This document shows, piece by piece, positions 8,098 to 33,059 of a stretch of 33,059 nucleotides of DNA. A program made the position numbers and the translations under genes. Every line of letters begins with the position of its first letter. The stretch's first letter is position 1. This stretch comes from Puniceicoccus vermicola (GTDB lineage: Bacteria; Verrucomicrobiota; Verrucomicrobiia; Opitutales; Puniceicoccaceae): positions 1 through 33,059 of the forward strand of contig NZ_JACHVA010000099.1 of NCBI RefSeq assembly GCF_014230055.1. The letters are read 5' to 3'. Under the pieces are notes generated by a model. It did not search any database and was not told where the DNA came from. It saw only the letters and a program-made list of their open reading frames with translations.

Positions 8098-8290
8098 GGA
8101 ATTCCTGTTCATTGGGTTAAAATAGTAGACTGCATGAATGAATACGAGGAGCGGTTTCTGGGTTGGGATGGATGCGACGATGAAGGTATTCATGGGGAGA
8201 TGAGGGCCGGATGTCAAACTGAAGGTGCAGTCCCGCTTTCTTGGAATCGAAGGTCTGGCCATCGGTATTCGTAGACTTTGCGCAAGCCTC

Positions 8291-8858: not shown

Positions 8859-8999
8859 TTTTATTCCTTATAATTGAGTTCTGTTAGAGATGACGGGAGA
8901 CAGGACTGCATTGCTTATCCTGATAGAATGTTGGAGTTAAGTTGAATCGATATGCATCATTATCAAGGTGAAAAACCCCTGTCTGACCTATCTTCTGCG

Positions 9000-11096: not shown

Positions 11097-11153
11097 TTTT
11101 ATTTCACTCAATTTAGTTCTGTTCCAGCAGTCGTCCTGCTTTAATAAAGTCTG

Positions 11154-11887: not shown

Positions 11888-11963
11888 AAAACTTGGGTTG
11901 GAGGAAAGTCGAAAATTGGATGAGGATTAATTTAGGTTCAGCGAGCGAAAGTCAGGTTGTAAA

Positions 11964-11975
11964 TGGTTATAACCA
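11964..11975. promoter_or_regulatory. operator-like palindrome TGGTTATAACCA
   Basis: A perfect 12-bp palindrome lies 77-88 bp upstream of the CBM9-like pseudogene start, in the 207-bp gap after the GH130 gene. It could be an operator for a regulator of the downstream genes. No matching regulator is encoded next to it. Confidence 0.3.
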
Positions 11976-12094
11976 CCTTCGTCAATGGCTTGCCGGAGGC
12001 AGGGCTTTTATACGGGCTATTGATTTAGGTGTGTTTGGATGGTGGATACGTTCGGGTGAAGGCCATCAGGTGGCTTTCGGGGGAGCCTGAGCCT

Positions 12095-15611: not shown

Positions 15612-16677
15612 TTGGTCAACGCAAAGCGCTATCCTGTGGTTACGGTGCTCGGGCCGCGTCAATCGGGTAAAACAACGCTGGTGCGTTCGCTATTTCCCGA
15701 CCACGGCTACTGCAACCTCGAAGACCCGGAACTACGTGCTTTGGCGACTCGGGACCCCAAGGAGTTTTTGCATCGACACCGTCCTCCGCTGATTCTGGAT
15801 GAAGTGCATCGGGTGCCTTCGCTGCTCAGTCTCCTGCAGGTGCGGATCGACGAGCGTCCCGCCGAAAAAGGAGCTTTCATACTGACAGGGTCGCACCGGC
15901 CCCGCATACGTGAAAGCATCGGTCAGTCGCTTGCGGGCCGCACTTCAATCCTGAAGTTGCTCCCCTTGTCCATAGCCGAACTTTCGGCCTGGGGCGTCAC
16001 GCAGGATCGCGATGCGCTGCCTGCCAACGATCTCTACCGCAGTTTTTACGAGACCTATGTCGAACGCGATGTGCGCCAGTTGATCGAATTGCGGAACTTG
16101 CAAGCCTTCGAGTTGTTCATGAAGCTGTTGGCCGGGCGTGTGGGGCAGCTGCTGAATCTGCATGCGCTGGCAGGTGAGATTGGCGTCAGTTCACCGACGC
16201 TTCGCGAGTGGTTGTCCGTGCTGGAGGCATCGTTTGTCGTCTTTCTCTTGCCTCCTTACTACAACAATTTCACGGAACCTGGGTTGGCGGCATACCTTTT
16301 GGAGATACGGACGCCGCAGCAAATGAGTCGGGATCCACTGCTGGGAAACCTGTTTGAAAATCTGGTGGTGATGGAGGCGCTTAAATCGCGATGGAATCAG
16401 GGGGTCGATCCGGATCTCTACCACATCCGCGATCAGGGGGGTTGAGATTGACCTTGTGCTTTCACGTCAACGCCAATTGTTCCCTTTCGAGATTAAAGCG
16501 GCACGGAGCTACCGGGAAGAATCTTTCAAAAATTTTGATAAAGCAGCGGGATGGAGTGATTCGATCCAGCCCGGTGCGGTGATTTATGCGGGAAAGGAAG
16601 AACAAATCGTGCAAGGCCATTCCCTGCTGCCATTTGAGAAAGCGAGTTCCGGGTTTCAAGTCAGATCAGGGGCCTAA
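15612..16677 (+). pseudogene. DUF4143-family AAA ATPase, decayed
   Basis: This belongs to the common P-loop ATPase family with a C-terminal DUF4143 domain, whose biological role is poorly known. The Walker A GPRQSGKTT (residues 14-22) and Walker B LILDEVH are intact. It then reads TGSHRPRIRESIGQSLAGRTSIL and YETYVERDVRQLIEL as in the family. Two stretches look shortened compared with relatives as I remember them: before SFYETYVERDV, and between PPYYNNF and TEPGLAAYLL. The frame stops at 16443-16445, just after a run of six G (16436-16441), and continues one frame on as VEIDLVLSRQRQLFPFEIKAA to 16677. The start is unclear: TTG at 15612, but the family-like IDRDLRNPLL is encoded just upstream from 15585. 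The intact family is about 380-400 aa. Confidence 0.85.
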
Positions 16678-16990: not shown

Positions 16991-17701
16991 TCACTCGTGC
17001 AGATCGACCTCGTCGGGAGAGGTGACCTTTTTGATTCTTCCGTCTTCGATCCAGCAGACGCGGGCGGAGGCGGCGAGCATCTTGGGGTCGTGGGTGGAGC
17101 AGATGACGGTGACGCCCTGGGTGCGGTTGAGGTCCTTGAGGATCTCGATGATTTCCTCGCCAGTGCGAGTGTCCAGGTTCCCGGTGGGCTCATCTGCAAG
17201 AATGACGGCAGGTTTGTTCGCCAAAGCCCGAGCGATGGCGACGCGTTGTTGTTGGCCGCCGGAGAGTTCGAACGGTTTGTGGTGGATTCGGTGGCCGAGA
17301 CCGACACGCTCGAGGATCTCGGTGCCCCGGCGAGCGGCTGATTTTTTGTCTTCGCCCTGAAAGACCATCGGAAGGGTGACGTTTTGAAGGGCGCTCATGA
17401 CGCCGATCAAATTGAAGGTCTGAAAGATATAGCCGATCTTGTTACAGCGAAACCAAGCTTGCTCAGGCTCGGTGAGGTCGAATACCGATTGGCCGTCGAA
17501 GATGACCTTACCCTCGGTGGGTCGATCCAGGGCGCCGATCTGGTTGAAGTAGGTGGACTTTCCGGAACCGGAGGGTCCCATGATGGAGAGAAACTCTCCC
17601 TTATAGATGTCGAGAGTCACCCCTTTGAGCGCCCACACTTCTTCGCCGATAAGCTTGTAGAGCTTTTTGACGTTCTCGGTGCTTATTAATACGTCGCTCA
17701 T
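16991..17701 (-). CDS. ABC transporter ATPase, MacB/LolD type (second ATPase)
   Basis: This 236-aa nucleotide-binding subunit powers an FtsX/MacB-type permease at the inner membrane. It has Walker [10 protein letters not shown] (42-50), Q-loop IFQTFNLIGVMSALQNVTLP, signature [15 protein letters not shown], Walker B AVILADEPTGNLD and H-loop STHD. The length and the ALKGVTLDIYKGEFLSIMG opening are those of LolD/MacB-N ATPases. One oddity is Tyr right after Walker A (KSTYFNQIGALDRP) where Leu is usual. It is the last gene of the operon; its ATG overlaps the stop of the PqqD-like gene by four bases (ATGA), so the two are translationally coupled. The permease partner is likely the 350-aa or the 1690-aa FtsX-type protein upstream. 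Confidence 0.93.
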   Translation of the reverse strand: MSDVLISTENVKKLYKLIGEEVWALKGVTLDIYKGEFLSIMGPSGSGKSTYFNQIGALDRPTEGKVIFDGQSVFDLTEPEQAWFRCNKIGYIFQTFNLIGVMSALQNVTLPMVFQGEDKKSAARRGTEILERVGLGHRIHHKPFELSGGQQQRVAIARALANKPAVILADEPTGNLDTRTGEEIIEILKDLNRTQGVTVICSTHDPKMLAASARVCWIEDGRIKKVTSPDEVDLHE

Positions 17702-18111
17702 GATGCTTGGTTTCGTTTGGGATGAACTTTGAGTTGGATCAGGTTGCGGCGCATAAGCATCTTGGTAAATCGGACCGTCGCATCTTCGCTATCGGAGGCA
17801 CTGAGATTATATTTGTTGCGAAGCGCTCGACGGATGGCGAAGAGGTCATTCCTCCCATCGATTTGTCTCCAGAAAAAGGCGCCCCTTTCGTCGAGGGCCA
17901 CCTGGATCGATTTTCCGGTTTTCGTAACTTTGGCCATTGCCCGTTCGACGAATGTGGTCGGAGGGACGACGGCGTGGAGGTGAAGATCCCCGGTGGAGGA
18001 AATGCGCTCCTCGACGGACTCGTGGCGAATGGGAACGGCTTCGAGCGGGTGGGCCCGGTCTTCGGGCGCAGGCGGGATCTGTTTCTTCTTCTGGTGGCGG
18101 GAGAGGATCAT
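17698..18111 (-). CDS. PqqD-like (RRE-fold) protein
   Basis: This 137-aa protein has a PqqD-like domain at about residues 60-130. PqqD is a small peptide-binding winged-helix fold (the RiPP recognition element). The pattern fits well: LDERGAFFWRQIDGRNDLFAI (residues 73 onward; LD..G...W..IDG), a helix RRALRNKYNL, then VRFTKMLMRRNLIQL. The first 50 residues are polar, basic and probably disordered. It sits between two ABC ATPases, 12 bp after one and overlapping the next by 4 bp. No PQQ precursor, radical SAM enzyme or other RiPP gene is visible, so it probably does not make PQQ. It may bind a peptide or act as an adaptor for the transporter. Assignment rests on pattern only. Confidence 0.72.
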   Translation of the reverse strand: MILSRHQKKKQIPPAPEDRAHPLEAVPIRHESVEERISSTGDLHLHAVVPPTTFVERAMAKVTKTGKSIQVALDERGAFFWRQIDGRNDLFAIRRALRNKYNLSASDSEDATVRFTKMLMRRNLIQLKVHPKRNQAS

Positions 18112-18123: not shown

Positions 18124-18894
18124 TTAGTGGAATTCGGCACTGGTGAAATCGATCTCGGACGGGTGGGCGACCTTGACGATCTGGCCATCCTTGATCCACA
18201 TAATACGGTTGGATCGTTTGAGCATCTTGAGGTCGTGAGTGGCCGAGATGATCGTCACCCCTAATTCGTCCTGCAATCGGGTGAGGAGCTCGATCATTTC
18301 CTCACCGGTTTTCTGATCGAGGTTGGCGGTGGGTTCGTCGGCGAGCACGATCTCGGGGCTATTGGCGAGCGCCCGGGCAATGGCTACCCGTTGTTGCTGC
18401 CCGCCGGAGAGTTCGGTAGGCTTGTGCAACAGGCGTTGTCCGAGCCCGACAAGTTCGAGGATCTCGACAGCTTTGTCTTGAGCGTCGTCCCCGTCCATCC
18501 CCGCGAAAGACATTGGGAGAGTCACGTTTTCAAGGCAGGTCATGGTGCCAATCAGATTGTAGGACTGGAAGATGTAGCCGATTTTCCGGCACCGTAGCCA
18601 GGCCAGTTCATTGGCGTCGAGTTGGGCGATATCGACCCGATCAATGAAGACCTTGCCGGAGGTGGGCTTGGCAAGACCGCCGATCATGTTGAAGAGCGTA
18701 GACTTGCCGGATCCCGAAGGTCCCATGATCGAAAGGTATTCGCCGCGATGGATCGTTAGGGTGGCTCCGCGAAGGGCGTGGGTTTGCACTTTACCCATTG
18801 TGTAGGTTTTCCGAATGTCGATTCCACGGATGACCACATCCTCGGAATCTTCATCCGGTCGGGAGAGGAGGTTACTGACTAGCTCGGCTTTCAT
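18124..18894 (-). CDS. ABC transporter ATPase, MacB/LolD type (first ATPase)
   Basis: This 256-aa ATPase is a paralogue of the one at 16991-17701. It carries Walker [10 protein letters not shown] (58-66), Q-loop [20 protein letters not shown], signature [15 protein letters not shown], Walker [14 protein letters not shown] and H-loop ATHD. It has an extra acidic N-terminal stretch of about 20 residues ([10 protein letters not shown]) before the domain. It follows the 350-aa FtsX-like permease by 16 bp and precedes the PqqD-like gene by 12 bp. With two ATPases and two FtsX-type permeases in the operon, either two homodimeric transporters or one heteromeric complex is possible; adjacency favours pairing with the 350-aa permease. 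Confidence 0.93.
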
Positions 18895-18910: not shown

Positions 18911-19963
18911 TCAGATGTTGCTGCGCAGGGCGGTCGCAGGGACCATGCGGGAGGCGAAGGAGGCCGGATAGATCGCCGCGAGGATCGACATCAGGATGCC
19001 GCAGGCGACGGCGATCAGATAGAGAAAAAGGGCACCGCTGTAATCGATTGAGGCGAATACGAGGCCGAACCCGAAGGTGAAGGCATAAATAACGGCGGCG
19101 ACGAGGAACCCCAAAACGCCTCCGATGAGGCTGCCGACCAATCCGGTGAGGGCGGACTCGATGAAAAAGATACGGCGGATGAAGGAGCTGAGGGCTCCGA
19201 GGCATTTCATGGTCCCGATCTCTTTGAAGCGTTCGGTGACGGACATCAACAGCGAGTTTGTGATGCCGATAATGGTCACCAGCAGCGCGATACTGACGAT
19301 CCAGATGTTGCGGATCTTCGCCTGGCGCTCCTCTCGCTCAATCCGCTTCAGCTCTTCGGGATCGAGTTTCCTCTCGAGGCGGACGGCGGTGCCGGTGTCC
19401 GGGACAGTCTTCAAGAGTTCGGTGCGCGGAGAAGCGACGATCGGCCTGCGCATTTCGGAGAAAGCAGCGGACCAGTTGACGGAAGGTGCAGGTCCGTCGC
19501 CGATCAGAAGAACTCCGGAAGCGCCTGCGCCGATTCCTTGGGTAGATTGAAGGGCCAAGAGCGAATCCAGTCTAGGAATCGGTTGACCCGGTTCGGCTTG
19601 GTAATATCGAATCTCAGCGACTTCCCGATTGTCGATCTCCTGGAGCAATCTCTCCTCAATAACGGTCAATTTGCCGGTGGCAATAACGCCGAGAACCCTG
19701 CCTTCGACCGAACCCGTGTCCGCCTCGAGAAAGCTGATCATTCGTTGCACCTCGCTCCGGATCTCGCGCTCTTCGGACATCCCCTTGCGAATCATGTTCG
19801 AGCAGAAGACGGACATGAGGAAGGCGACGCCGAGGACCACGCCCATCATAGTGACGACGGAGCGGCCCATTCGGATACGGATTCCTTGAAGGACAACTTC
19901 AAGGGCGACCGAGAACGGAAGTTTGACCTGGGACTGGATGATCTGTGTAGGTTGCCGGGACAT
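18911..19963 (-). CDS. ABC permease, FtsX/MacB-like
   Basis: This 350-aa inner-membrane permease has the MacB/LolC plan. A first transmembrane helix (about 36-58, VVTMMGVVLGVAFLMSVF) is followed by an extracytoplasmic domain of about 170 residues, then three helices near 233-255, 272-305 and 318-342. The FtsX signature is in TNSLLMSVTERFKEIGTMKCLGALSSFIRRIFFIESALTG. Such permeases transmit motion across the membrane instead of passing a substrate through a channel. The extracytoplasmic part is smaller than in MacB and has charged stretches (EERQAKIRN, RKLDPEELKRIEREER). It starts 2 bp after the stop of the OPT-like gene and is followed by its presumed ATPase. Confidence 0.88.
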   Translation of the reverse strand: MSRQPTQIIQSQVKLPFSVALEVVLQGIRIRMGRSVVTMMGVVLGVAFLMSVFCSNMIRKGMSEEREIRSEVQRMISFLEADTGSVEGRVLGVIATGKLTVIEERLLQEIDNREVAEIRYYQAEPGQPIPRLDSLLALQSTQGIGAGASGVLLIGDGPAPSVNWSAAFSEMRRPIVASPRTELLKTVPDTGTAVRLERKLDPEELKRIEREERQAKIRNIWIVSIALLVTIIGITNSLLMSVTERFKEIGTMKCLGALSSFIRRIFFIESALTGLVGSLIGGVLGFLVAAVIYAFTFGFGLVFASIDYSGALFLYLIAVACGILMSILAAIYPASFASRMVPATALRSNI

Positions 19964-19965: not shown

Positions 19966-22077
19966 TTAGAAGGGCGCTCCGGTGACCGCCTGTTTGATAA
20001 GGTTCATGGCGATGGCTCCCATACCGATGAGGCCGACACCGGTGAAGTAACCAGCTACGATGGTGGGAGCCATTCGGAGGAAATTGTTGGCTCCGAATTT
20101 CTTCTGAAAGTAGTAGCGTCCTATGATTGCCCCGACAAGTTCGAGCACGAGATAGTGCGGGAGCTGGCCGATCCCTCGAATGAAGCCATAGATGAGAAGA
20201 ACCGGAAGGCCGAAGACCGACAGGAGGGCGAAGACCACCACGGTGCCGATCGCGCTTCCCCCGATGATCTCCGGTTTGATCGCCTTCATGAACTGGCTGT
20301 CGCGAATATCGACATCCTCGGGATTCTGCCCCTCCGGTACGAAAGTCGAGGAATAGAGTAGGGTGTGTTCCTTACTGAGGAGTTCCCAGCGAATCTCTGC
20401 GGTCGGAAAGAAGGACGACGGGACCTCATTGGTTTTCCAGATAAACGCCCAGAAGAGAATGGAACATCCGAAGAGAACGGGAATGGCTACGGCTTCGGCC
20501 TTGACCAGGGACCACATGCTGACTCCGGTGAGTTCGTTGACCCGGAGTGCCTGGGCGATCCCTCCGTAGTTTTCGGTGGGGACCGGCGCAAGCCAGATGT
20601 CGATCCCTTTGGCTCCCGAGAGGATGAAGGACCCCTCGCGGATGAAGGGAATCTCCACATCCTGACCGGAGATCCCGGAGAGGCGGGCGTTGACGTACGA
20701 CATAAGAGGTACGTAGACGAAACTGAAAAGGATGAGGAAGATCAGGGGCAGCTGGGGAATCAGCAGGTGGGCCACGTAGATCATGGCGGTAGCGGCCAGG
20801 ACATAGCCGACGGCCGCCATCCAGAGAGGGTAGTCGCCACGTCCTTCCGGGGTGGCCCAAAGATCTTCGGGAGCACCGTCTTTCTGCTTCTTGCGCTCGC
20901 GGGCGGTCGTCACGAAAGCCCGGATGACGGAGTAGATGGAAACCACGGCGATGCCGAGAGCGGTGCCGATGCTGAAACTCAACCAGAAATCCACATGATT
21001 GGAGAACTGGGTGTTGACCGTATCCATTCCCGGCTGCCAGGTCGTCAAAACTCCGAAGTGGTAGAGAAGCGGATTGATCAGAAAGGTGACGAAGATCGCA
21101 ATCGCCGTTCCGATAACGGCCCAGAACGGGATGACGAATCCGATAAGCAGGATGCCCAGATCAAGAGTAGCCCCGATGGGCGCGGCGGGAAGAAACCCTT
21201 CCGTCACGTTGGTGAGATCGACAAACGGCTGGGGAATGAGGAAAACGGGTTCTTCGAGGATCAGGCCGGTGATGGCGGGAACGCCAACCAGGATCACGCC
21301 AAAGGCGATACCGAGGATGGCTCCCAGAGAAAACAGTCTCCACTTTGAGAAAGTTTTGCCCGAGTTCTCGTCGGAATCTTCGCTTTCGTTGTCGTCCCCG
21401 GTAATCGCGGATTTCGCTTTTCCGAACCGTTTGAGAAAGGACTTTTTCTTTTTGCCGCTATCTTCTTCGGCCATGGCCATGGCCCCTTGAGCCTGAATGG
21501 GCGCGAGCGGGAAGGGGAGTTTTTCGATGTCGGAGGTCAGGCGATAGAAGAAATAGCCGATCGTGTATTTCTTGACCACCGAGATGATCATGATGAAGGC
21601 GACCAAACCGATCGGGATCATCCAGTCGCTGTGCAGGAGGTTCCGTTCGATGAGAGCCGGACTGTCCGGAGAGGGAACCCACCAGCTAGGGAAAGCGTTG
21701 CCCATGCCTTGCTCGCGAACGGCGTCGCTGTTGACGAGAAAGGCGCGAAAGATAAGTGGACCGATCGGCCCCCCCGGCATGAGGAGGTACCCGGTCATCA
21801 TGAAACGGGTAGCGTAGAGCAGAGTGACGAGATTCTGCTTGGATAAAGGTTTCATCGCCCGCCGGGCCACCTGACTGAAGAGGATGACGGTGACCCAGGT
21901 TGCGGCCGAGGTCATGTCCCCTCCGGTCATGAGGCCCAGATAGATCGAGCCCGGCATCATGACGAGACCGCAGAAGAAGATCCCTACAACGGTGGACCAA
22001 CCGAAGCCGTCCCGAAACTCGGTGGGTGAGTCGAGTAGGTTGCGATACTGGTCCAGTTCTTTGTCGATTTTACGCAT
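19966..22077 (-). CDS. OPT-like (oligopeptide transporter) polytopic protein
   Basis: This 703-aa protein with many transmembrane helices resembles the OPT superfamily, which imports oligopeptides or metal chelates. Family-like signs are the N-terminal GWSTVVGIFFCGLVMMPGSIYLGLMTGG and the block DIEKLPFPLAPIQAQGAMAMAEE, close to the KLPFPxAPIxAQG motif of OPT proteins. A highly charged cytoplasmic loop follows (about 207-250, GKKKKSFLKRFGKAKS then acidic DDNESEDSDEN). The C-terminal half again has paired helices and ends near GVGLIGMGAIAMNLI. Its ATG lies inside the end of the giant permease gene (8-bp overlap), implying coupled translation. Substrate and direction are unknown. Confidence 0.75.
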   Translation of the reverse strand: MRKIDKELDQYRNLLDSPTEFRDGFGWSTVVGIFFCGLVMMPGSIYLGLMTGGDMTSAATWVTVILFSQVARRAMKPLSKQNLVTLLYATRFMMTGYLLMPGGPIGPLIFRAFLVNSDAVREQGMGNAFPSWWVPSPDSPALIERNLLHSDWMIPIGLVAFIMIISVVKKYTIGYFFYRLTSDIEKLPFPLAPIQAQGAMAMAEEDSGKKKKSFLKRFGKAKSAITGDDNESEDSDENSGKTFSKWRLFSLGAILGIAFGVILVGVPAITGLILEEPVFLIPQPFVDLTNVTEGFLPAAPIGATLDLGILLIGFVIPFWAVIGTAIAIFVTFLINPLLYHFGVLTTWQPGMDTVNTQFSNHVDFWLSFSIGTALGIAVVSIYSVIRAFVTTARERKKQKDGAPEDLWATPEGRGDYPLWMAAVGYVLAATAMIYVAHLLIPQLPLIFLILFSFVYVPLMSYVNARLSGISGQDVEIPFIREGSFILSGAKGIDIWLAPVPTENYGGIAQALRVNELTGVSMWSLVKAEAVAIPVLFGCSILFWAFIWKTNEVPSSFFPTAEIRWELLSKEHTLLYSSTFVPEGQNPEDVDIRDSQFMKAIKPEIIGGSAIGTVVVFALLSVFGLPVLLIYGFIRGIGQLPHYLVLELVGAIIGRYYFQKKFGANNFLRMAPTIVAGYFTGVGLIGMGAIAMNLIKQAVTGAPF

Positions 22078-25000
22078 GGGTGGGGATCTCGGACTTGGAT
22101 TGTTCTTCGAGTTGGAGGCGAACCTCTTCGTAAAGTTCGGATTTCATTTCGGGGGTGACGGCCCGCCAGTGCAGGAACTGTTTGCGGATCCCGACCATGA
22201 AGGGTCGGTTGACGCGCTCCCATGAGTCGCGGGTTCCTGAGCTGCGGACCAATCGAATAGCCGCCATAAATTCTCCGGTCTCTTCGTCGAAAGGAGTGCG
22301 GATGGTCAGCTCTTGGGAGACGCCCAGATCGAAGGGTTTCAGCCAGACGGTGGCACAGACCGAAGGAACCACGGTCTCGGGGCCGCCCTTGGAGGATCCC
22401 TCGATCTCATAGCGTGGCGGTCCTGCGGAAAAGCCACCGGCACCGCCTTCGCCATGGTCTCTTAGAAAGCGGTGGAAGAAGGCGAGGACGGCCACTCGCT
22501 CGCGGCGGTCGAAGGTAAAGGGGAGGTTGAAACTGTAGCTGTCGCCTTCGGGCTCCGGCATGTCCCACCCCGAGTCCTCGGAGGGTGCGGCGATCTCCAT
22601 GGCGGAGCGAGCGGGGAAGTAGGTCGAGAGGAAGACGGCGCCGACCACTGCGAGGGAGGCGTAGATACTATTGACCGAAGCGAAGGTCATGTTGAGATCA
22701 CCCGTCAGGTCGAGCGCGGTGAGAACCGTCCCTGTGCCTTGACTGAGCAGGTAGCCGATCACGCAGCCGACTACGGCGTAGACGAAGGCTTCGGCGAAAA
22801 ACATGAAGAAAATGAATCGCGGAGCAATGCCGACGGCGTTGTAGACGTAGATTTCGTCACGCCTTTCGTAGACCGATCCCTTCATCGTGTTGAGCACGGT
22901 CAGCGCCGCAATGATCAGGGGAATGATCAAGTCGATCAATCCGGCGAAGTCGGAGACGCGCATGCGGCTGCCACGGTAAGCCGTTCCGTCGATTCCGTAG
23001 AAAGCAGGGCGGGCGCGTTGTTCGAGGAATCGGACGACCTCCTCTTTCGCCTGGCGCAGGCTGAGAGAGTCGAAATCGAGGGCCAACGAAACCAGTCGGT
23101 TATCGGCATCGGCCACGTTGATACCGAGATCGGCCTGGGGGGCGATGAGAATTTCGGAGGGGGCCATCAGAACGCCATCCTCGTCGCCCAGAACACTCGC
23201 GAAGGCTCCGGGGACCTTCTCGAGCTCGCGGAGACCGCGAATGTCAAATGGCAGGATGGGACGTCCGTCAAGATCCTTGAGCGAAAGGTATTGGTTCTCG
23301 TCGAAAATCCCACGGACGATAAAGTTACCGCCATTGATGGAGACGGGAACCCCGCCGGAATTGACCGCTTCGACCGTGATCCCCAGGCGCTCCGCCATCG
23401 AGGAGGGAATGATGACGGGGATATCTTCTTCCGGACTGGTTTCGTCCGGGGTGGGAAACCAATATGGCTCCGTGATCAAAGGGAAATTTTCCTGGAGTGG
23501 TTCGTTGTGGGCAAGACGGATGATCGAGCCGAACGAAAGAGTGCTGACTCGGTCGTCGTCCCCTTCGTGAAGAATTTCGAGCTGGGGATTGAGTCGCTCG
23601 TTGTTGCTGTTGGTCGTGCCGACATAGAGCGAACGGGGAGCGACGGGAAAAGCGCTTCCGTATCGGGACTCGATGGCGAATCGCTCCGTGGCGCTGATCG
23701 GGGCGAATTTCTCATTTTTTACCAGCAATCCCTGATAGTTGGCCGGACCGACCGCGATTTCCGTGTCTTCGAAGTCGCTGTAAATCGAGGTGAAGCAGAT
23801 CATCGCAAAGGTGATGAGCACCAGTGTGAGGCAAGTGAGACCCGTCCGGACCTTGCGCCGATGCATATTATTCAAGCCGAGCATGAACGCCGTGCCGATC
23901 ACCCCCATGGAATTGGCTTCGGCACCTGCTACCCGTCCTCGCTTCTGCTTGATCTCTTCCAGGTTCTCGCGGAATTTTCCCGCAAACAACAGAGTGATGG
24001 CGACGGTGATCAAGAGGATGAAGAACCCGAGAAGGATCATGATCGACGAACGAATCATCTCGAACGCCGGATGGAGCAGACGGAGCAGGGCGAAGACGGT
24101 GAGGAAGATGACCACCTGAGCCCCGATCTGTTTTCGGATGTCGGAGAAGCCGCAGACGAGTTTCTCGAAGAAGAAGGTAAAGGGGATCAACAGAGCCATG
24201 TACCAGAGGATGCTGACGACCGCTCCGTTGATGTTCTCGCGGAGAATGGGATGGACGATGATCGAGTAGGTCAGCGAGTCGCGGGCGACCAGCATGCGCT
24301 CGAAGAATCCAAGATCCTCCCCGTCTCCGGCCGCCTCGTTCAGGAGCGCTCCGCTTTGTTCGTGAAATTCGAGAGTGTGACGGTCGGCCAGTCCCTTCGC
24401 TTCCTGGAGTTCCATGCGGGTCTCATTGAGCCGGTTCATGGACTGTGCTTGCTCGAAAGGGATATTCTGCAGGATCGAATGGTCCAGAGCGAGGTATCCT
24501 TCGCCCTCGATAGCCAAGTCGGTTGTCGGATTTTTCTCCGGGGACCCGCTCATGTAAGAACGGACGGCCTGGACCAACTCGTTGTCGGCGGTTCCCGAGC
24601 GAAACGTCGTGTAGAAATAGGAGTCGGGCGGAAGAAAGTTGACGACACTATCCTGGGTCACGACCTCGTTGAGCTGATCGAAATTGGTCAGGCTGCCTGC
24701 TTCGATCATTCGAATCGATGAGAAGGGCCGCAGCGTCTGCGGGTTGATCATGTCGAGTATGGCTACCGGTGTGGCCCGGAATACGACAAGATTTACGTCG
24801 CGGAAGTCGTCCTTAAGCGGATTGGGAAAAATAGAGGTGTAGAGGCTTTGGGTGGAGGAACTCTCGTCTTTGATGTAGCTTATGTATCCGTTGTCGTCGT
24901 AGTAAATCGACTGGAGATTGTATTCGCGCCCAAGGCGGAACGGAGAAGAGGCGTCTGGCAGATCGTACCGTCCGTAGGGATCGGTGAAGTGCATCATGCC

Positions 25001-27142
25001 TTCATAGCGGATGGGGCTGCGCTCGATGGCGAGACTTGCGGGCTTTGGTGCGACGAGCGCTCCGGCCAGCGGAAAGTTCGGAACCAGCGAGCGACCTACG
25101 TCGGCGACATAGACGGTTCCCGAGTATTGGCTCGGTTGAGTGGCGGGAGGCATCTTGATTGAGCCGAAACCCTTCCCGAGCGCCAAGGCAAACTCGGCAA
25201 TGAAGTCCAGGCTATCCGCCATCGTATTCGCAGTCATCGTGGACTCTTGCCATGGTTCGCGGATTTTGCGGTAGGAGTCCAGACGGTCGGTATTGACGAA
25301 GGTGAAGGCCCGGTAGCCCATGGTGTTCCAGTTCGAGGTCGGCACCGGAAAGCCGGAAACCGTCCGATAGATAGCCCCCGCCGAGCTGTTGGCGGGCGAC
25401 TTCAGCCGGACCGAATGATCGAGATCCGTTTCCTGGAGAACTTGCTCAACGACCGAAGCCACGTTGTTGGCGATGATACTGGTGCTTCGTGTGAAAAGAT
25501 CAGTCGGACCTCCGAGGACAAAGCTCAGTTCGCTCGGTCCGGCCGTTTCCAGAGTTTTAGGGAGGAAACCAGGGCTGAAAACGTACAGCTCTTCGTAGTC
25601 CGCAAAGAGCCGATTCAGTTCCAGACCGGCGGTCCACTCACGAACCTTCTCGGAATGATAGGCGACGAGCGTATCAAATCGGCTTTGAAGCGCCCCTTGA
25701 AGGTCATAAACGTCTACGAAACGGGTTGAATCGTCATAGCCGACTGCCGTCCGATCCATGAGCCGCGACAAGGGCAGACTGGCGGCGGTCGCCAAGTCTT
25801 CGTAGCGGAACTGAGCTTCGAGGAAGGCTTTGTATTCGGGGCGATCCAGCTCGAAAACATCGCCGCGCTCGAAATCGATGCGGCTTTGAAGAACCTTTTC
25901 GGAGTCCTCGAATACCAGGGTGTTGAGAACGTAGCGCAGCTGGTCGAAGAAGAAATTTCGCTCGTTCGGGGTGAAACTCGATTCGATCTGGGCCGTAGTT
26001 TCCTTGGACTGCAGGAAGCCCTCCGTCGCAACGGCGTCGGCGAGCGTGGTGACGAGAGCGAGGTCGGATTTCTCTTCCTCGATGTGCGAACGGATCTTTG
26101 TCGCGGTTGCTTCGGCAGCTCCCTCCGGTCCGATCATGCGGAGGAACTGGTCGAGTCCGGCGAAACCGATATATTGAGCACCGGTGGTGACAAAGATGAC
26201 GTCACGCTGAAGTTCATCCCGATGGGCCGCCAACCCTTTCGCCAAAGCCAGCTGGGTGGCGAGGGGGTAGCTTTGTAGAGGATTCCGGGCGTAGTCGGGG
26301 AGGAGTCCGTATTCGTCGTAGGGAACACTGAAAACCAATGCCTCGCGGGTGGGGTTATCTGCCCGGAGTACGCCCACCACAGTCTCGTGATCTACCGACT
26401 GGAACGTCGCTTTTACCTCAAGGCGGACTCGCTTCCCCGCGTAGTCGAGCAACTCTTCGGTTGCCGCGAGTCGGGGGAAATTGACCGGGAGAATGCTCTG
26501 CATCCCGGATTGGGCCAAGACAGTTTGCCAGGGAATCGCTTCCATTCCTTCTGGATGCACGAGAACCAGCCCTTTCATTCCCATTTGAGCATAGCGCGAC
26601 CATTCGAGGTCTTGGGTTTTCGGGATCTGGTCGAGCCGCACGACTCCGATCACGTCGCTGAAGTCCGAATACTTGAGGAGTGTAGTCTCATCCAGGACCA
26701 GGAGTCGGCCCGTTAGTCCTTCTTCGGGGCTTACGACCGGTTGAAAGGAGTTGGACGGAAACGGAAAGACTTCGACGTTCGGCATGACCGTCCCGTCCTC
26801 AAGACGAATAGAGCGATCTTCCGTTATGGGAGCGGCTGCAGTGCCCGGCAAGCGGTAGACTTCAAGGCCGTTCCCGGCGAGGAAGTCGGCGATAAACTCC
26901 GCCGCGTCTGCGTGGCCCGGGCGGCCGAGCATTCGCGAGCCCAAAGCCTCTATCTCGTCGTGCAAGGCTTCCACCGAACCCGGTGCGAGGGCTTCTCGAA
27001 CCGCGTCGCTTCGATAGTCGCTGTCAAAGGGGAATCCCGGGTCGAAGGGCTCGGGTGTGGATAATGAGAGAACAGTCCAAGCCGTACCGAAGAGAATCGC
27101 GGTGAAGAGGACGAAACCGATGATGCGTTCTTTCAAAGACAT
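22070..27142 (-). CDS. giant FtsX-type permease with degenerate M28-like ectodomain
   Basis: This 1690-aa protein is far larger than usual FtsX/MacB permeases (350-800 aa). After an N-terminal membrane helix (about 8-28), residues 50-370 look like an M28 aminopeptidase with a PA-type insert. The opening ALHDEIEALGSRMLGRPGHADAAEFIADFL and the block TVVGVLRADNPTREALVFSVPYDEYG match its shape, but the zinc ligands are gone: PYDE stands for HyDs, and GAQYIGFAGLDQF for the GAEExGxxGS region. So it is probably a non-catalytic, peptide-binding module. A long extracytoplasmic part runs to about 960, then helices at about 980-1060 and an FtsX helix after NNMHRRKVRTGL (about 1100). Another extracytoplasmic domain follows, then the last FtsX helices (1400-1510) with VYERRDEIYVYNAVGIAPRF. 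A cytoplasmic tail of about 170 residues ends it. It starts 8 bp after the upstream gene. Confidence 0.85.
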   Translation of the reverse strand: MSLKERIIGFVLFTAILFGTAWTVLSLSTPEPFDPGFPFDSDYRSDAVREALAPGSVEALHDEIEALGSRMLGRPGHADAAEFIADFLAGNGLEVYRLPGTAAAPITEDRSIRLEDGTVMPNVEVFPFPSNSFQPVVSPEEGLTGRLLVLDETTLLKYSDFSDVIGVVRLDQIPKTQDLEWSRYAQMGMKGLVLVHPEGMEAIPWQTVLAQSGMQSILPVNFPRLAATEELLDYAGKRVRLEVKATFQSVDHETVVGVLRADNPTREALVFSVPYDEYGLLPDYARNPLQSYPLATQLALAKGLAAHRDELQRDVIFVTTGAQYIGFAGLDQFLRMIGPEGAAEATATKIRSHIEEEKSDLALVTTLADAVATEGFLQSKETTAQIESSFTPNERNFFFDQLRYVLNTLVFEDSEKVLQSRIDFERGDVFELDRPEYKAFLEAQFRYEDLATAASLPLSRLMDRTAVGYDDSTRFVDVYDLQGALQSRFDTLVAYHSEKVREWTAGLELNRLFADYEELYVFSPGFLPKTLETAGPSELSFVLGGPTDLFTRSTSIIANNVASVVEQVLQETDLDHSVRLKSPANSSAGAIYRTVSGFPVPTSNWNTMGYRAFTFVNTDRLDSYRKIREPWQESTMTANTMADSLDFIAEFALALGKGFGSIKMPPATQPSQYSGTVYVADVGRSLVPNFPLAGALVAPKPASLAIERSPIRYEGMMHFTDPYGRYDLPDASSPFRLGREYNLQSIYYDDNGYISYIKDESSSTQSLYTSIFPNPLKDDFRDVNLVVFRATPVAILDMINPQTLRPFSSIRMIEAGSLTNFDQLNEVVTQDSVVNFLPPDSYFYTTFRSGTADNELVQAVRSYMSGSPEKNPTTDLAIEGEGYLALDHSILQNIPFEQAQSMNRLNETRMELQEAKGLADRHTLEFHEQSGALLNEAAGDGEDLGFFERMLVARDSLTYSIIVHPILRENINGAVVSILWYMALLIPFTFFFEKLVCGFSDIRKQIGAQVVIFLTVFALLRLLHPAFEMIRSSIMILLGFFILLITVAITLLFAGKFRENLEEIKQKRGRVAGAEANSMGVIGTAFMLGLNNMHRRKVRTGLTCLTLVLITFAMICFTSIYSDFEDTEIAVGPANYQGLLVKNEKFAPISATERFAIESRYGSAFPVAPRSLYVGTTNSNNERLNPQLEILHEGDDDRVSTLSFGSIIRLAHNEPLQENFPLITEPYWFPTPDETSPEEDIPVIIPSSMAERLGITVEAVNSGGVPVSINGGNFIVRGIFDENQYLSLKDLDGRPILPFDIRGLRELEKVPGAFASVLGDEDGVLMAPSEILIAPQADLGINVADADNRLVSLALDFDSLSLRQAKEEVVRFLEQRARPAFYGIDGTAYRGSRMRVSDFAGLIDLIIPLIIAALTVLNTMKGSVYERRDEIYVYNAVGIAPRFIFFMFFAEAFVYAVVGCVIGYLLSQGTGTVLTALDLTGDLNMTFASVNSIYASLAVVGAVFLSTYFPARSAMEIAAPSEDSGWDMPEPEGDSYSFNLPFTFDRRERVAVLAFFHRFLRDHGEGGAGGFSAGPPRYEIEGSSKGGPETVVPSVCATVWLKPFDLGVSQELTIRTPFDEETGEFMAAIRLVRSSGTRDSWERVNRPFMVGIRKQFLHWRAVTPEMKSELYEEVRLQLEEQSKSEIPTHA

Positions 27143-27150: not shown

Positions 27151-29703
27151 TTACAAGAGGTCGGAAAAGATGATTTCAACTCCTTGCGAGCGGAGGTAGG
27201 CGGCATAGATTGCGTTCAGCAGCAGAGCCAGCACCGAGGCAATAAAGACTCCGGCGAAAAAGGGGAGCAGTTTCGTGCGAACCGTTTCAGCGCCTCCGAG
27301 CTTAACAACGATCAAACGTAGCAACCAGGCCGCCAAGATACTCCCCCAAAGGGATCCGGCTCCGGACCCCATCAAGTGGGTGGATCCGAGGATAAATCCC
27401 AGAGGGTGAAACCAAAAACCCGCAAATAGTTGCCGAAGGACGGTCAGAATGGTGGCTCCGATTGCTCCGTAGAGATAGCCATAGGTCGATGGGGCGATGC
27501 CGCTTTGCTGGGCTTCATCGCCCACCATGGCGGTGCCGGCTTGGGCCAGCTCCTGGTTGAGATTGCTGAAATACCAGGGCTTATCCTCAAAGGCCCAATT
27601 GAAGCGAAGTGAGTCGCCGCCGAAGGCGTAACTGGTCGAAAGAAACGACCAACCTCCGATTATGATCCCACCGAGTATTCCCAGCAGGCAGGTGTAGAGA
27701 ATATGTTTGGGGCGAATGCCATAGCGTCGGCCCAGCTCGAGGATCTCCAGTTGCGCGCCGGGGATAAGAAAAAAACCGGCAACCGTGATGAAAAAACTGG
27801 CGGTAAACGTAAAGACGACCAATCCGGGTCCAAAGGCTCCAATGCCCCCGAGCAGGAGGATAAAGAGGGCGGCGTTGTTCGGGGTGAAGTAGCCGAAAGG
27901 AATTCCACATTCAGCCCGGATTCGCATGGCCACGAAGCCGATTGTTAGAAGAAAGACCATAAAGGCCAGCACTCCGAGAATCGAAATCCCCACCCAGTTC
28001 GCCCAAACCGCTGACGCCGCAAAAACGGCAACGAGCAGGATGAGTGCTGTGCGATAGGAGAAAATCTCGTCCCGCTTCGGCGGTTTTGAGGAGACGGCTT
28101 CCTTAAGCACTTCCCGGAAGTAAGTTCGGGAAAACCAGAGGATCAGCAGGGCGTAGGCGAGGTAGGCCCCCACCTGCTGCTCCTGAGCGTAGGGGAACCC
28201 CGGGCTGGCGTCCATGCCGCTCACGTATCCGTACCAATACAGGAGACGGAAGAGAAAAAATCCTACCAGAAAGCTGAAGAGAATATTCAATTCGATGAAA
28301 ACCGCGAGACTGACGAAGACGGCCATCACGGTGAAGGTGATGTTCCACGTTTCGCCCCATTCAGGCCCGAAGTAGGAGCCCAGGGGGACAGAGATACTCG
28401 GATCCGGAACGGCCGAATTGTAGAAGCTGGCCATCTTGAGAAGGCACCAGATCAGGCCAGCGGAAAATCCGAGCCACATGGTGGAGTTGCGCCAGATGCC
28501 CGAAAGAAACCGGTTCTTGGGTTCGTCCGCGCTCCCGATGAGTAAGGTGGGGATCCGGGTGAGCGGCAGGGAGAACCGTTCGCTGTCGATCCATTTGCGG
28601 CGCATGATTACGGCGATGCTCAACGTGCCCAGGAGAATGATTGCCAGAAAACCGCCCCACGCGAGAATTGGCCGCCACCAAGCGTCCCAAGGAATATAAC
28701 CAGAGACCAGATATCGCAGTCCGCTCAGGCTGAAAAGATTATCGGGGCGGACGACCAGGCCGTGTCGATGGTGCTCGGGAAGAGCGGCGTAGTCACTTTC
28801 GGATATCTCCGTCCGTCCGGAAAAGACCTGTTCCATCGCTAGAACACTTTGTAGCTGTGGATCGGCCACATAGAGGACACCGGGGCCTTCCAATCCGATC
28901 TCGAGCGTGACACTCTCGGTTGCGTTTCGGGGAGCTTCAAAGCCATAGAGGCCTTCCCTCTGAAATCCCTGGGGATGAATGACGGATGGCTTGCGAATGA
29001 TCCGGGAATAGAGGATCTCCCGGAAGTCGTCGGAATCATCCGCATACATACGGACAAAGTAGCGACTATCGCCTTGGAACTCGGAAGGCCGCAGCAATAC
29101 GCTGGATAGGTAGGGGGTCCCGGGCATGACCCCCGGCGATTTTTCTTCCTTTAGGGGGAGGGTGAAGCGGATCGAGGACACCTCTCCGGAGGCTTCGTTT
29201 TCCAGGACCAGCACCTCTTGTTGCTCGCCGGCCGAATGGTCGACGGTTTCAAAGCGGGAGTTGCCCGAGAGAAATACGGATTCCGAAGGCTGAAGACCTT
29301 TATCGGCAAGAAGGTTCGCCCCGGAAGGCCAGAAATTGTCGCTGTAGGCGTCCATCTTGGCGAAGTCGCCCGTACGCGGGATCGTCGAGGATATGGCGAC
29401 GATTCGATGCCAGAATCCCTGAGTCATCATCGGGCCGCTGATCAGGATCGCGTAAAGGACGCAAAGCAATTCGGGACGGGAAAGGATGCGGACTTTGAAA
29501 AGGGTGAAAAAGATCGCCCCCAGACCCACCATCGCGAGAAAGACCCAAAGCCCCGGTATCACGAGCGCATGCTCTCCCGGGGAGCTGGCCACGAGGACGA
29601 CATGCACGTAGTTGATCAGAATGGCCGATGCCAGCATCGCGAATATACTGGCGACGAGGGATCGGGCGGTGAAGGCGGGTGCAAATTTTGAGGCTGCGTT
29701 CAT
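27151..29703 (-). CDS. DUF6785/DUF6784-like polytopic membrane protein
   Basis: This 850-aa protein resembles the DUF6785 (N-terminal) and DUF6784 (C-terminal) proteins common in PVC bacteria. Two N-terminal helices and the stretch SRPELLCVLYAILISGPMM precede an extracytoplasmic domain (about 105-340; FETVDHSAGEQQEVLVL, VTLEIGLEGPGVLYVADPQL, beta-rich). About ten helices follow. Key blocks are MRIRAECGIPFGYF, SFFITVAGFFLIPGAQLEILELGRRYGI, and the C-terminal FAGFWFHPLGFILGSTHLM with IVVKLGGAETVRTKLLPFFAGVF. The overall organisation recalls OPT-type transporters, and a real OPT-like gene lies downstream in the same operon. No convincing Shine-Dalgarno site is seen; the gene starts 37 bp after the fucosidase. 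Function is unknown; a transporter role is inference. Confidence 0.78.
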   Translation of the reverse strand: MNAASKFAPAFTARSLVASIFAMLASAILINYVHVVLVASSPGEHALVIPGLWVFLAMVGLGAIFFTLFKVRILSRPELLCVLYAILISGPMMTQGFWHRIVAISSTIPRTGDFAKMDAYSDNFWPSGANLLADKGLQPSESVFLSGNSRFETVDHSAGEQQEVLVLENEASGEVSSIRFTLPLKEEKSPGVMPGTPYLSSVLLRPSEFQGDSRYFVRMYADDSDDFREILYSRIIRKPSVIHPQGFQREGLYGFEAPRNATESVTLEIGLEGPGVLYVADPQLQSVLAMEQVFSGRTEISESDYAALPEHHRHGLVVRPDNLFSLSGLRYLVSGYIPWDAWWRPILAWGGFLAIILLGTLSIAVIMRRKWIDSERFSLPLTRIPTLLIGSADEPKNRFLSGIWRNSTMWLGFSAGLIWCLLKMASFYNSAVPDPSISVPLGSYFGPEWGETWNITFTVMAVFVSLAVFIELNILFSFLVGFFLFRLLYWYGYVSGMDASPGFPYAQEQQVGAYLAYALLILWFSRTYFREVLKEAVSSKPPKRDEIFSYRTALILLVAVFAASAVWANWVGISILGVLAFMVFLLTIGFVAMRIRAECGIPFGYFTPNNAALFILLLGGIGAFGPGLVVFTFTASFFITVAGFFLIPGAQLEILELGRRYGIRPKHILYTCLLGILGGIIIGGWSFLSTSYAFGGDSLRFNWAFEDKPWYFSNLNQELAQAGTAMVGDEAQQSGIAPSTYGYLYGAIGATILTVLRQLFAGFWFHPLGFILGSTHLMGSGAGSLWGSILAAWLLRLIVVKLGGAETVRTKLLPFFAGVFIASVLALLLNAIYAAYLRSQGVEIIFSDLL

Positions 29704-29740: not shown

Positions 29741-31051
29741 TTAGAGAAGTATGTCGGACGGACAAGGATCGTAGGGAGGGTGTGCGACCCTCGGGACTCT
29801 CATTCCTCCACCCAGACGGATGGACGGCGGACGGTCGCAAAGAAACTCCAGAACCGCGGGACCGTCCGGTTCCGGGGAGGATTCGGGCAGGGTAAGCTGA
29901 AGCAGATCTCCTTCTTTTCGGAAAGGAAAGGTCTCTCCGCTACCGAGCAAGGAAACTTTCTCGACTTCGCATTCGAGTCCGCCGAGGCGAAAGGACCCGG
30001 GCCAGTGTCGGGTGATCAAAAAGAGTCGGTTGCCCGAGCAGGTGAAAGGACCATGGTGCAACCAGTCGTCCCGGTGAGCGGATGTGCGCTCTCGAAGTTC
30101 GTAGAAAAAAGGCTCGGTATCATGGATAGCGGCTCCGTTGCGCGTCATCCAAGCCGCTAATTGATCAAAGAGGTCGCTGGCTTGTGGCGGGAGAGCGCCG
30201 TCTCCCATCAGGCCAAAATTGAGCAGGAGGTTTCCCCGCTGTTTTGCGACAGAGGCGAGAAGCTGAACCACATCTCCTAAACTTTTCCAAGAGTGGTCGC
30301 CCTTGTGGTAGCCCCAACTTTCGTTTGCGGAGATGCACGTCTCCCAAGGGCGCCACGGTTGCGGGGCGCTGATATGTCCTTCTGGAGTGCCGAAGTCACC
30401 GTCCAGACCGTTTCGGTTGTTAAACAGAAGGCCGGGGCACAGTTCGCGAAGTCGCTGGTTCATCAATTCGGCCCTCCAGCCATTCGCATCGAACGGCCAC
30501 CATCCGTCGTACCAAAGGATGTCAATGGGACGGTATCGGCCAACGAGCTCTTCCAGACGTGCGAAGGTCGCATCAAGAAAAGATTCGTGGGCTGCTTCGC
30601 TCTCAAGAGCGTCTGAGGCGTCCGGCTGGTCGTACCAATTGTTCAGGCTGTGGTAGAGACCAATTTTAAGATTATACCGGCGCGCGGCTTCAATCGTCTC
30701 GTCCACCAGGTCGCGTTTGCAGTGCGAGTTTCCGATGTGCAGGTCACTCAGTTCAGTCGGGTAGAGGCGGAATCCCTCGTGGTGCATCGTCGTGAGAACG
30801 ACGTAGCGCATGCCAGCCGCTTGTGCCTTGCGGCAGAGGGCGTCGGGATCGTAGCTCTCGGCGCTGAACTGATCACGGAGATTTCTCAGCTCCTCGCCGG
30901 AGAAACGTTCGCGGTTCGCAGACCACTCACCTCGGCCGACTAAGCTATAAAGTCCGAAGTGGATAAACATACCAAACCGTAGGTCGGAAAAGTCCTGGGC
31001 GCTGATCGAAGAGGCGATTTCGTCCTGAGAGCGATTGGCGGATTGGGTCAT
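29741..31051 (-). CDS. GH29 alpha-L-fucosidase
   Basis: This 436-aa intact enzyme cleaves terminal alpha-L-fucose. The TIM barrel opens with LRFGMFIHFGLYSLVGRGEW, continues with YVVLTTMHHEGFRLYPTELSDL and IGLYHSLNNWYDQPD, and carries the nucleophile D182 in ILWYDGWWPF. GNLLLNFGLMGDGALP closes the barrel and a C-terminal beta-sandwich follows. It has no signal peptide, so the enzyme is cytoplasmic and works on imported material. Its ATG overlaps the stop of the GntR-type regulator by four bases (ATGA), and the DUF6785-like gene starts 37 bp downstream, so it is the only metabolic enzyme of the nine-gene operon. A decayed relative lies at 8291-8858. Confidence 0.93.
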   Translation of the reverse strand: MTQSANRSQDEIASSISAQDFSDLRFGMFIHFGLYSLVGRGEWSANRERFSGEELRNLRDQFSAESYDPDALCRKAQAAGMRYVVLTTMHHEGFRLYPTELSDLHIGNSHCKRDLVDETIEAARRYNLKIGLYHSLNNWYDQPDASDALESEAAHESFLDATFARLEELVGRYRPIDILWYDGWWPFDANGWRAELMNQRLRELCPGLLFNNRNGLDGDFGTPEGHISAPQPWRPWETCISANESWGYHKGDHSWKSLGDVVQLLASVAKQRGNLLLNFGLMGDGALPPQASDLFDQLAAWMTRNGAAIHDTEPFFYELRERTSAHRDDWLHHGPFTCSGNRLFLITRHWPGSFRLGGLECEVEKVSLLGSGETFPFRKEGDLLQLTLPESSPEPDGPAVLEFLCDRPPSIRLGGGMRVPRVAHPPYDPCPSDILL

Positions 31052-32163
31052 GATTGTGAAACCTTGAAATCGATCAATTCCAGCCGAGAGGATTCTTCCA
31101 GACTTTGGCGATACGGATTGGTTCCGGTGTGCTCGGCGATGACTTCGCCAGCGACCGCTTCCGCCAAAATATCGGGCTTGAATTCAAGAAGCGTGGTCGG
31201 AAAGGGAAGAAACATCCCGGAGCCCTGATTGGATTGGGAAACCACCAGTAGGTCGTTGGGGACGTCGATGGATTCGTTGAGGATTGCCTGGCTCGCTTGC
31301 GCGTAGAGAATATCGTCCATCAGTAAAAGCCCGTCGGGCTTTTTTCTGGGGAAAGCGCCCCAAAGAGAGCGAAACTGCTGCCAACCAGCATCGCCAGAGG
31401 CCGGCGTTCTTTGGTCGTGAAACCACTCGGGATAGAAAGGAAAGCCCTCTTCGGCGAAAATTCGTTCAGCTAGGGTCATTCCGGAGCCTTCCTTGAAGAG
31501 CTCCCGCCAAGCAATCACTGCGATTTTCTTGCGCCGATTTGATTTGAAGTATCGAAGGGCCATTCGAAGCATCGCTTCCGGATCGAGCTGCAGATGCCGA
31601 TTGAACTGGGTCCCGAATCCGTAGACGTAGCGTTCTTTCCGCTTCTCCTCTGTGAGAAGAGCTGGAGGTGGATTGGTCGAAATGAAAACGAATCCCCTCA
31701 GTGAACGATCATTGTACACCGCCTCCCGGGCCTTTTCCGGGGTCCGGTCCCCCTTTTGGGGCGGTTGCACCTGCTCATGGAAGGTGACCACCGGGATTCC
31801 CGCGGCTTCCAACAACTCTTGGACCTTTTGGAATACCCTCATGTGGAAATAGGACGCTCGCGACGAGTAGAGGTCCCAGGTCATGACAAGGGCGACGGGG
31901 AGGGATTCGCGTGGATCGCGAACGAAGGTGCCACTTCCATGAATTCGTTCGATCAAGCCCTCGCTGGCGAGTGTCGCAAACGCTTCCCGAACTGTCATGA
32001 CGCTGACCCCAAAGCGCTTGGCCAATTTTGACTCCGCCTCCAATTTCGCGCCGGGTTCAAGCTCCTCTTTGACATGGTGCCGCAGGGCCTCGGCGACTTG
32101 GCCACTGAGGGACGGTTTGCGCTGAATGGTTTTGAGCATCGTATTCGGGGAGAATTGAGTCAT
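31048..32163 (-). CDS. GntR-family regulator with LacI-type effector domain
   Basis: This 371-aa regulator has a GntR winged helix at residues 18-82 (VAEALRHHVKEEL, then KRFGVSVMTVREAFATLASEGLIERIHGSGTFV) and a periplasmic-binding-protein-like effector domain from about 90 on (FHMRVFQKVQELLEAAGIPVV, RRKKIAVIAWRELF, KPDGLLLMDDILYAQA). This AraR-like layout is common in sugar regulons of PVC bacteria and Firmicutes; the effector is probably a sugar. As first gene of the operon, and coupled to the fucosidase, it probably controls its own operon, perhaps with fucose or a fucoside as inducer. AGG lies seven bases before the chosen ATG; an internal ATG eight codons later is a weaker option. Confidence 0.92.
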   Translation of the reverse strand: MTQFSPNTMLKTIQRKPSLSGQVAEALRHHVKEELEPGAKLEAESKLAKRFGVSVMTVREAFATLASEGLIERIHGSGTFVRDPRESLPVALVMTWDLYSSRASYFHMRVFQKVQELLEAAGIPVVTFHEQVQPPQKGDRTPEKAREAVYNDRSLRGFVFISTNPPPALLTEEKRKERYVYGFGTQFNRHLQLDPEAMLRMALRYFKSNRRKKIAVIAWRELFKEGSGMTLAERIFAEEGFPFYPEWFHDQRTPASGDAGWQQFRSLWGAFPRKKPDGLLLMDDILYAQASQAILNESIDVPNDLLVVSQSNQGSGMFLPFPTTLLEFKPDILAEAVAGEVIAEHTGTNPYRQSLEESSRLELIDFKVSQS

Positions 32164-32587: not shown

Positions 32588-33059
32588 TCATTGGCACTGA
32601 GCGAGGACGCGCAGTCGGTAATTTTCAAAGTTTCTGAAGCCGAAGGCTCTTCTTTGGATGAGTTTCATTTTTCTGTGGAAGCCTTCGGTGATGGCATTGT
32701 TTTTGGTAAATCGCCACATGGTGGCGATGGGCTCGATCCATTGTTGGAGGGTCTTGGCGAGGGTTTTGAGTTGTGCAAAGCCCTGTTGTTGTAGTTCTTC
32801 GATATGTCGATAGAGCTCTTTGGCATTTGATCGACACTTCTTTGCTGTGCAGGACTTCTGGCAGAGAAGGGAGTGGATTTGCCATCGTTTGAGATAGAGG
32901 GGCTCGAGGGTTGGGTGCTTGTCGAAGAGTTCCTGACGGCGTCGGATCTGTTTTTGCGAGAGGCGCCCGGGTCGGGTTCGCAGGATCGCCAGGAGTCCGC
33001 TGTTGCGGGTAATCTCGGGAGCAATCTCACGGCAAAGGCCCGTGAAGTGATGAGCGAGT
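32588..33059 (-). CDS. ISL3-family transposase, 5' end outside window
   Basis: The minus strand is open from the right window edge to a TGA at 32588-32590, giving 156 residues without a start codon. The sequence is the C-terminal part of an ISL3-family DDE transposase: IEELQQQGFAQLKTLAKTLQQWIEPIA, WRFTKNNAITEGFHRKMK with the catalytic Glu, and the family-typical RRAFGFRNFENYRLRVLAQC ending. It is a different subgroup from the ISL3 transposase at 1-828, which ends RDTEYFFLKIKHAFPGK. The codon frame is intact as far as visible, so the copy could be functional. Confidence 0.85.
   Translation of the reverse strand, partial: LAHHFTGLCREIAPEITRNSGLLAILRTRPGRLSQKQIRRRQELFDKHPTLEPLYLKRWQIHSLLCQKSCTAKKCRSNAKELYRHIEELQQQGFAQLKTLAKTLQQWIEPIATMWRFTKNNAITEGFHRKMKLIQRRAFGFRNFENYRLRVLAQCQ

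Follow-up and report, generated by a model that had tools for sequence, protein, structure and literature searches.

Here we describe a recurring gene cassette which, as judged from sequence comparison, comprises a DUF6785 membrane protein, a giant FtsX-type permease, an OPT-like protein of about 700 residues, a small FtsX permease, two ABC ATPases and a PqqD-like protein. It was analyzed in a stretch of 33,059 nucleotides from Puniceicoccus vermicola (contig NZ_JACHVA010000099.1, positions 1 to 33,059), hereafter called the window. The giant permease bears an ectodomain resembling an inactivated M28 peptidase; the cassette is the stronger result, ahead of this pseudo-peptidase fusion, and for neither of them was a published description found, judging on titles and abstract openings. 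The reading that we tentatively favor is that the giant protein would be both receptor and permease within a hitherto undescribed type VII ABC machine, which would bind, and not cut, a periplasmic ligand and would work together with OPT-like carriers. The cassette is defined well enough for this to be tested.

Gene content and recurrence of the cassette

In the window, the cassette belongs to a co-directional run on the minus strand, in which the overlap between neighbors never exceeds 8 nt and the spacing never exceeds 37 nt. The run is headed by a GntR regulator with a periplasmic-binding-like domain recognized by Pfam (31048-32163), followed by an alpha-L-fucosidase (29741-31051; PF01120, E 1.7e-68), which lies upstream of the cassette and, according to the flank survey, is not a constant member of it. 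Then come the DUF6785/DUF6784 membrane protein of 850 aa (27151-29703), the giant permease of 1690 aa (22070-27142), a polytopic partner of 703 aa whose gene overlaps the giant one by 8 nt (19966-22077), and a small MacB/LolC-E-like FtsX permease of 350 aa (18911-19963; PF02687, E 1.2e-17, and NCBIfam). The run ends with a first ABC ATPase (18124-18894), the PqqD-like protein of 137 aa (17698-18111; PF05402, E 2e-7) and a second ABC ATPase (16991-17701). Both ATPases were recognized by Pfam and NCBIfam and have intact Walker A and signature motifs; their best NCBIfam model is LolD (E 7.5e-69 and 2.9e-68), at scores below the LolD cut-off. Radical-SAM genes, which are possible partners of PqqD, gave 14 matches in the genome, none of them on the cassette contig.

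Of 46 related loci, 42 contain both the giant gene and the 703-aa partner, always on the same strand (42/42); the 46 loci are exclusive of the window, hand-picked from search matches rather than randomly sampled, and in some cases cut by contig ends. With profiles built from members of those same loci, the partner was counted in 43, DUF6785 in 36, a separate FtsX permease in 38 and a PqqD-like protein in 25; at least two ATPases were found by BLAST in 35, and the cassette is complete in 19. A survey of 387 genomes of the phylum returned the giant protein in 72 of them, the 703-aa partner in 70 and DUF6785 in 73; the three coincide in 67, a figure which assumes that the 387 genomes were identical across the three surveys. 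Many of the 72 giant-protein matches span only about residues 880-1690, the M28-like N-terminus having been examined in 46 proteins.

The association is not universal. In G007, a genome in a single contig, the giant gene is present in two divergent copies (342439-347571 and 1940856-1946003 on C1), neither of which adjoins the gene for the 703-aa partner, located elsewhere on the same contig. No relatives of this partner were found in plasmids. Nor did a common flanking pathway emerge, as no family occurs more than three times (E<=1e-4) among the 111 flanking proteins used out of 119 selected.

The count of 72 in 387 sampled genomes gains interest from the phylum, about whose uptake machinery little is known. 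A study on Verrucomicrobiota reports SusCD genes as not found and calls for further study of other, outer-membrane transporters (PMC8857213); the cassette would belong to the inner membrane.

The giant FtsX-type permease

The giant reading frame, on the minus strand, extends from an ATG at 27142 to a stop codon at 22070-22072. It is not a chance ORF, since a relative in a Kiritimatiellae MAG aligns with it across residues 2-1690 at 56% identity; this is, by sequence, its nearest named relative, returned as the single locus of a contig scan that detects close relatives only. Relatives were also sought in viral contigs, and none were found there.

Pfam recognizes the FtsX C-terminal domain (PF02687) at residues 1407-1516 (E 1.2e-13; 51.6 bits against a cut-off of 25.5) and no other family above cut-off, in agreement with a preliminary description of the sequence, which had proposed a pseudo-peptidase fused to a permease of the mechanotransmission type. 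Against the PDB (phmmer, E<=1), the matches are MacB/LolC-type permeases only, and a PHROGs search with the single protein did not reveal M28. The protein remains below the NCBIfam cut-offs of the named equivalogs MacB (30.7 against 966 bits), LolC (18.3 against 473) and FtsX (26.8 against 255), and of the ADOP subfamily (21.3 against 622.3). The FtsX-type NCBIfam models that it matches have 292-803 positions against its 1690 residues, which bears out the earlier remark that it exceeds known FtsX/MacB permeases in size.

Hydropathy predicts eight transmembrane segments (7-25, 974-992, 1006-1024, 1034-1052, 1102-1120, 1399-1417, 1444-1462 and 1487-1505). By PF02687 and hydropathy, an FtsX module could be delimited at residues 1102-1517 (22592-23839); its four-helix layout, drawn from hydropathy only, would consist of the helix at 1102-1120, an ectodomain at 1121-1398 and the helices starting at 1399, 1444 and 1487. 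Three extra predicted helices lie ahead of it (residues 974-1052; 23987-24223). A cytoplasmic N-terminus would place residues 28-970 and 1121-1398 in the periplasm and the last 170 or so in the cytoplasm.

This tail, previously estimated at about 170 aa, comprises about 170-185 aa after the last helix (residues 1518-1690; 22073-22591); it has no Pfam match and is conserved over the 46 proteins compared, with 18 columns at 90% identity or more and conserved positions in PFDLGVSQ and FLHWR. Another conserved stretch, seen in the alignment of relatives, precedes the second transmembrane helix (residues 681-970; 24233-25102). Its pattern resembles carboxypeptidase regulatory-like domains; the assignment to CarboxypepD_reg was rejected, with a single match among the 46 members, at E 0.059.

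An M28-like fold in the ectodomain

Taken alone, the window's protein gives no M28 match in Pfam, even at E<=10. At the level of the family, sequence profiles identify the N-terminal ectodomain as an M28-like fold with a PA insert. In a set of 46 N-termini of 750 aa each (the window and 45 relatives, leaving out L069, whose giant gene is split into two frames), Pfam at the same threshold matched Peptidase_M28 in 20 (best E 1.7e-8), Nicastrin in 15 (best 1.4e-4) and PA in nine (best 2e-4). Two profiles, one from 17 N-termini of proteins matching over their full length (window included) and the other from 29 more distant ones, were compared by hhalign with true M28 peptidases from the same order, seven of which were used after L126 was dropped from eight loci (wrong frame chosen). 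They scored 98.5 and 98.9% (E 3.2e-15 and 2.2e-17, as single comparisons), against at most 0.4 for 20 column-shuffled profiles each and at most 0.2 for reversed profiles.

Searched against the PDB, the profile of the 46 N-termini matched 31 distinct sequences at E<=0.01, all of which presumably share the M28-type fold: aminopeptidases, nicastrin, transferrin receptor 1, nicalin, glutaminyl cyclases and carboxypeptidase II types, plus a further one labeled just gamma-secretase. Two sets labeled Keratinase KP1 correspond to the P. aeruginosa aminopeptidase, according to the naming in the Foldseek result.

Structure prediction points in the same direction. An AlphaFold model of residues 40-350, built from two sequences, reached a mean pLDDT of 63.6, the other four models staying at 29-40. 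Foldseek placed PA-containing M28 aminopeptidases first (E 8.5e-11, TM about 0.4), and VIA-align gave Z 14.1 over 264 residues (rmsd 9.1) with PaAP and Z 12.8 over 140 residues (2.8 A) with a Legionella aminopeptidase, the long alignments having an rmsd of 7-12 A and the short ones (135-150 residues) of 2.5-3.4 A. Given these confidence values of the models, the matches count as support only beside the profile evidence, and a two-sequence model of residues 28-690 was kept out of the fold search on account of its mean pLDDT of 37.6. The idea that the N-terminal third resembles an M28 aminopeptidase with a PA insert, initially drawn from the single sequence, is thus borne out by hhalign, by the family profile and by the 40-350 model of moderate confidence, for which M28 aminopeptidases were the best matches and no unrelated fold appeared.

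The extent of the domain has to be revised. Residues 40-345 (26108-27025) hold the first half of the fold, with the PA-like insert at about 140-225. A C-terminal M28-type signature of the relatives, of the GTPxDTLDRL type, aligns by eye near window residues 605-680, and as a simple pattern GTPxD is present in 17 of the 46 giant proteins. The fold probably extends beyond the limits first proposed, residues 40-380, its second half lying approximately at 591-680 (25103-25372). An insertion of about 245 aa (residues 346-590; 25373-26107), defined by the alignment and predicted by the model as mainly helical at low confidence (mean pLDDT 37.6), would then split it.

Loss of the zinc ligands

In M28 peptidases, zinc is held by a first His, a bridging Asp and a Glu, among other residues, and another Glu acts as general base. 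Aligned with the seven M28 peptidases, the window's protein carries Pro274 instead of this His, Leu289 instead of the bridging Asp, Gln323 instead of the general-base Glu and Tyr324 instead of the zinc Glu (26171-26323), and retains the Asp of the HxD motif as Asp276. The two motifs that had been pointed out as replacing the metal-binding ones, PYDE (residues 274-277) and GAQYIGFAG (residues 321-329), contain Pro274 and the pair Gln323 and Tyr324, respectively.

The same holds for the family. The first zinc His is kept in four of the 46 proteins, the bridging Asp in one (with Glu in 12), the general-base Glu in one, and Glu or Asp at the zinc Glu position in none; the combination of His, Asp/Glu and Glu/Asp occurs in 0/46, a count that covers the three alignable zinc ligands, the last Asp and His lying outside the scored alignment. 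The loss predicted at the outset is upheld for the first half of the fold, with no ligands appearing elsewhere in it. On this alignment, the ectodomain is an M28-like domain devoid of its aligned zinc ligands and of its general-base Glu, and the His preserved in four proteins suggests descent from an active enzyme.

It could be argued that the ectodomain is an active hydrolase relying on other residues, given that the HxD Asp persists in 43 of 46 proteins and the first His in four, and that the last two ligands fall outside the scored alignment. As not one of the 46 keeps the three alignable ligands, and the zinc Glu position is never acidic, we regard this as highly improbable. Binding without cleavage is most likely the role of the M28/PA domain, by analogy with transferrin receptor 1 and nicastrin, which are precedents for an M28-like domain that does not cut.

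OPT-like partners

Against an OPT profile from the same order, hhalign gave 83% over 549 columns for the family of the 703-aa protein and 89% over 455 for DUF6785, with at most 0.3% in 20 shuffled profiles each. Pfam OPT matches two of 15 partner proteins (best E 3e-11), the 703-aa protein of the window not being among them, and in G023 the OPT and DUF6785 models fall on one and the same site. By these profile comparisons, both the 703-aa partner, polytopic by hydropathy, and DUF6785 appear to be OPT-like membrane proteins.

Relation to known systems and proposed function

The cassette resembles the type VII ABC systems (MacB, LolCDE, FtsEX, BceAB, YbbAP-TesA) in the FtsX C-terminal domain, present in two permeases, and in the LolD-like ATPases. 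It differs from them in that the giant permease adds about 950 ectodomain residues, including the pseudo-M28 domain, three transmembrane helices and the tail, and in that the cassette adds two different ATPase genes and genes for OPT-like and PqqD-like proteins. With the PA-containing M28 aminopeptidases (2ek8 AM-1, 6hc6 YwaD/BSAP, PaAP), the giant protein has in common the fold and the PA insert (family profile E 3.1e-16 for 2ek8 and 4e-16 for 6hc6; model Z 13-14), whereas three zinc ligands and the general base are replaced and the domain is held at the membrane in fusion with a permease. Nicastrin, transferrin receptor 1 and nicalin are likewise membrane proteins with an ectodomain of the M28 type (profile E 5.6e-8, 1.1e-6 and 4.5e-5, respectively); they are eukaryotic proteins without peptidase function and, to our knowledge, are not fused to an ABC permease. 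As for OPT oligopeptide transporters (PF03169), with whose profile the 703-aa partner and DUF6785 align, the cassette is distinct in encoding its OPT-like proteins with a type VII ABC core.

The gene content, with two FtsX permeases and two LolD-like ATPases, suggests a heteromeric type VII core, in which the large and small FtsX subunits would form a pair on top of the two ATPases, in the manner of LolC and LolE on LolD. The pseudo-peptidase would hold a periplasmic ligand without cleaving it, most likely a peptide or a peptide-containing molecule. The ATP-driven closing of the FtsX helices would move the ectodomain, which could hand the ligand to the OPT-like partners or gate them, and the ligand would cross the inner membrane, most likely inward. 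It is the OPT-like partners that suggest passage across this membrane, and the joint presence of M28, OPT and PqqD that suggests a peptide; the latter idea draws on these three family resemblances. Pointing to glycans, and against a peptide, are the sugar-type GntR regulator and the fucosidase heading the run; moreover, OPT-like proteins can carry other substrates. Against the reading as a whole, PqqD is present in 25 of 46 loci and the full set in 19, although contig ends cut some of these loci; no flanking pathway is constant, the giant copies of G007 stand apart from the partner, the window's 703-aa protein lacks a Pfam OPT match, and LysM-type inserts occur in five relatives. The peptide-binding sensor or gate of the preliminary description would be a candidate role.

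A bolder version would see here a new class of primary active transporter, widespread in the phylum, in which a type VII ABC core powers OPT-like carriers and a dead M28/PA peptidase serves as peptide receptor. If true, an ABC system would work by mechanically driving proteins similar to secondary carriers. We consider it unlikely.

Some of the ectodomains invite a different interpretation. LysM, a domain that binds peptidoglycan, is matched by Pfam in five of the 46 N-termini (best E 4.9e-15), as an insert of 113-115 residues inside the M28-like ectodomain, just before HxD (L037, L086, L095, L099 and L103). Such inserts fit a cell-wall role as well, and the complex could be a mechanotransmission machine comparable to FtsEX or BceAB, acting on the cell wall or in signaling and not in transport. 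The pseudo-peptidase would then serve as scaffold or sensor, either moving an enzyme of the envelope or binding peptidoglycan, with the OPT-like proteins as regulators. The most constant partners are nevertheless two large OPT-like membrane proteins, which would be odd for a pure signaling machine, and the 111 flanking proteins include no family more than three times. We judge this reading somewhat doubtful, and maintain as our tentative preference a receptor-permease that works with OPT-like carriers.

Lipid or lipoprotein traffic has also to be considered. The work that type VII ABC systems perform in the envelope is mechanical, and recently studied members have added functions to the group, as exemplified by YbbAP-TesA (PMC12646458), whose type VII core is coupled to a hydrolase. 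By analogy, YbbAP-TesA is the nearest functional counterpart of the cassette. It lends some weight, together with the best scores of both ATPases to LolD (below its cut-off), to an exporter or extractor of inner-membrane lipids or lipoproteins similar to LolCDE, MacB or YbbAP, in which the M28-like domain would replace the acceptor or the enzyme. This alternative seems improbable to us: ATPases of the LolD type work in many type VII systems, no LolA, MacA or TolC family was revealed by Pfam in the 20 window proteins scanned, and the OPT-like partners would be left unexplained.

Genomic surroundings in the window

Beside the cassette, positions 2285-14957 contain glycan-degrading genes (sulfatase, GH100/GDE-like, CBM9, GH130 and GH2-like), as well as a PEP-CTERM-like protein, below cut-off, and a 703-aa protein without a Pfam match. 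An AAA_14/DUF4143 ATPase gene on the plus strand (15612-16445) adjoins the end of the cassette. Transposase-type genes are found on both sides (1093-1773, 4272-5438 and 32588-33058; HTH_21/rve, DDE_Tnp_1 and ISL3). The 703-aa partner is absent from two genomes of the window's own genus and, considered together with these flanking transposases, this suggests that the copy in the window may lie in an accessory stretch of the genome.
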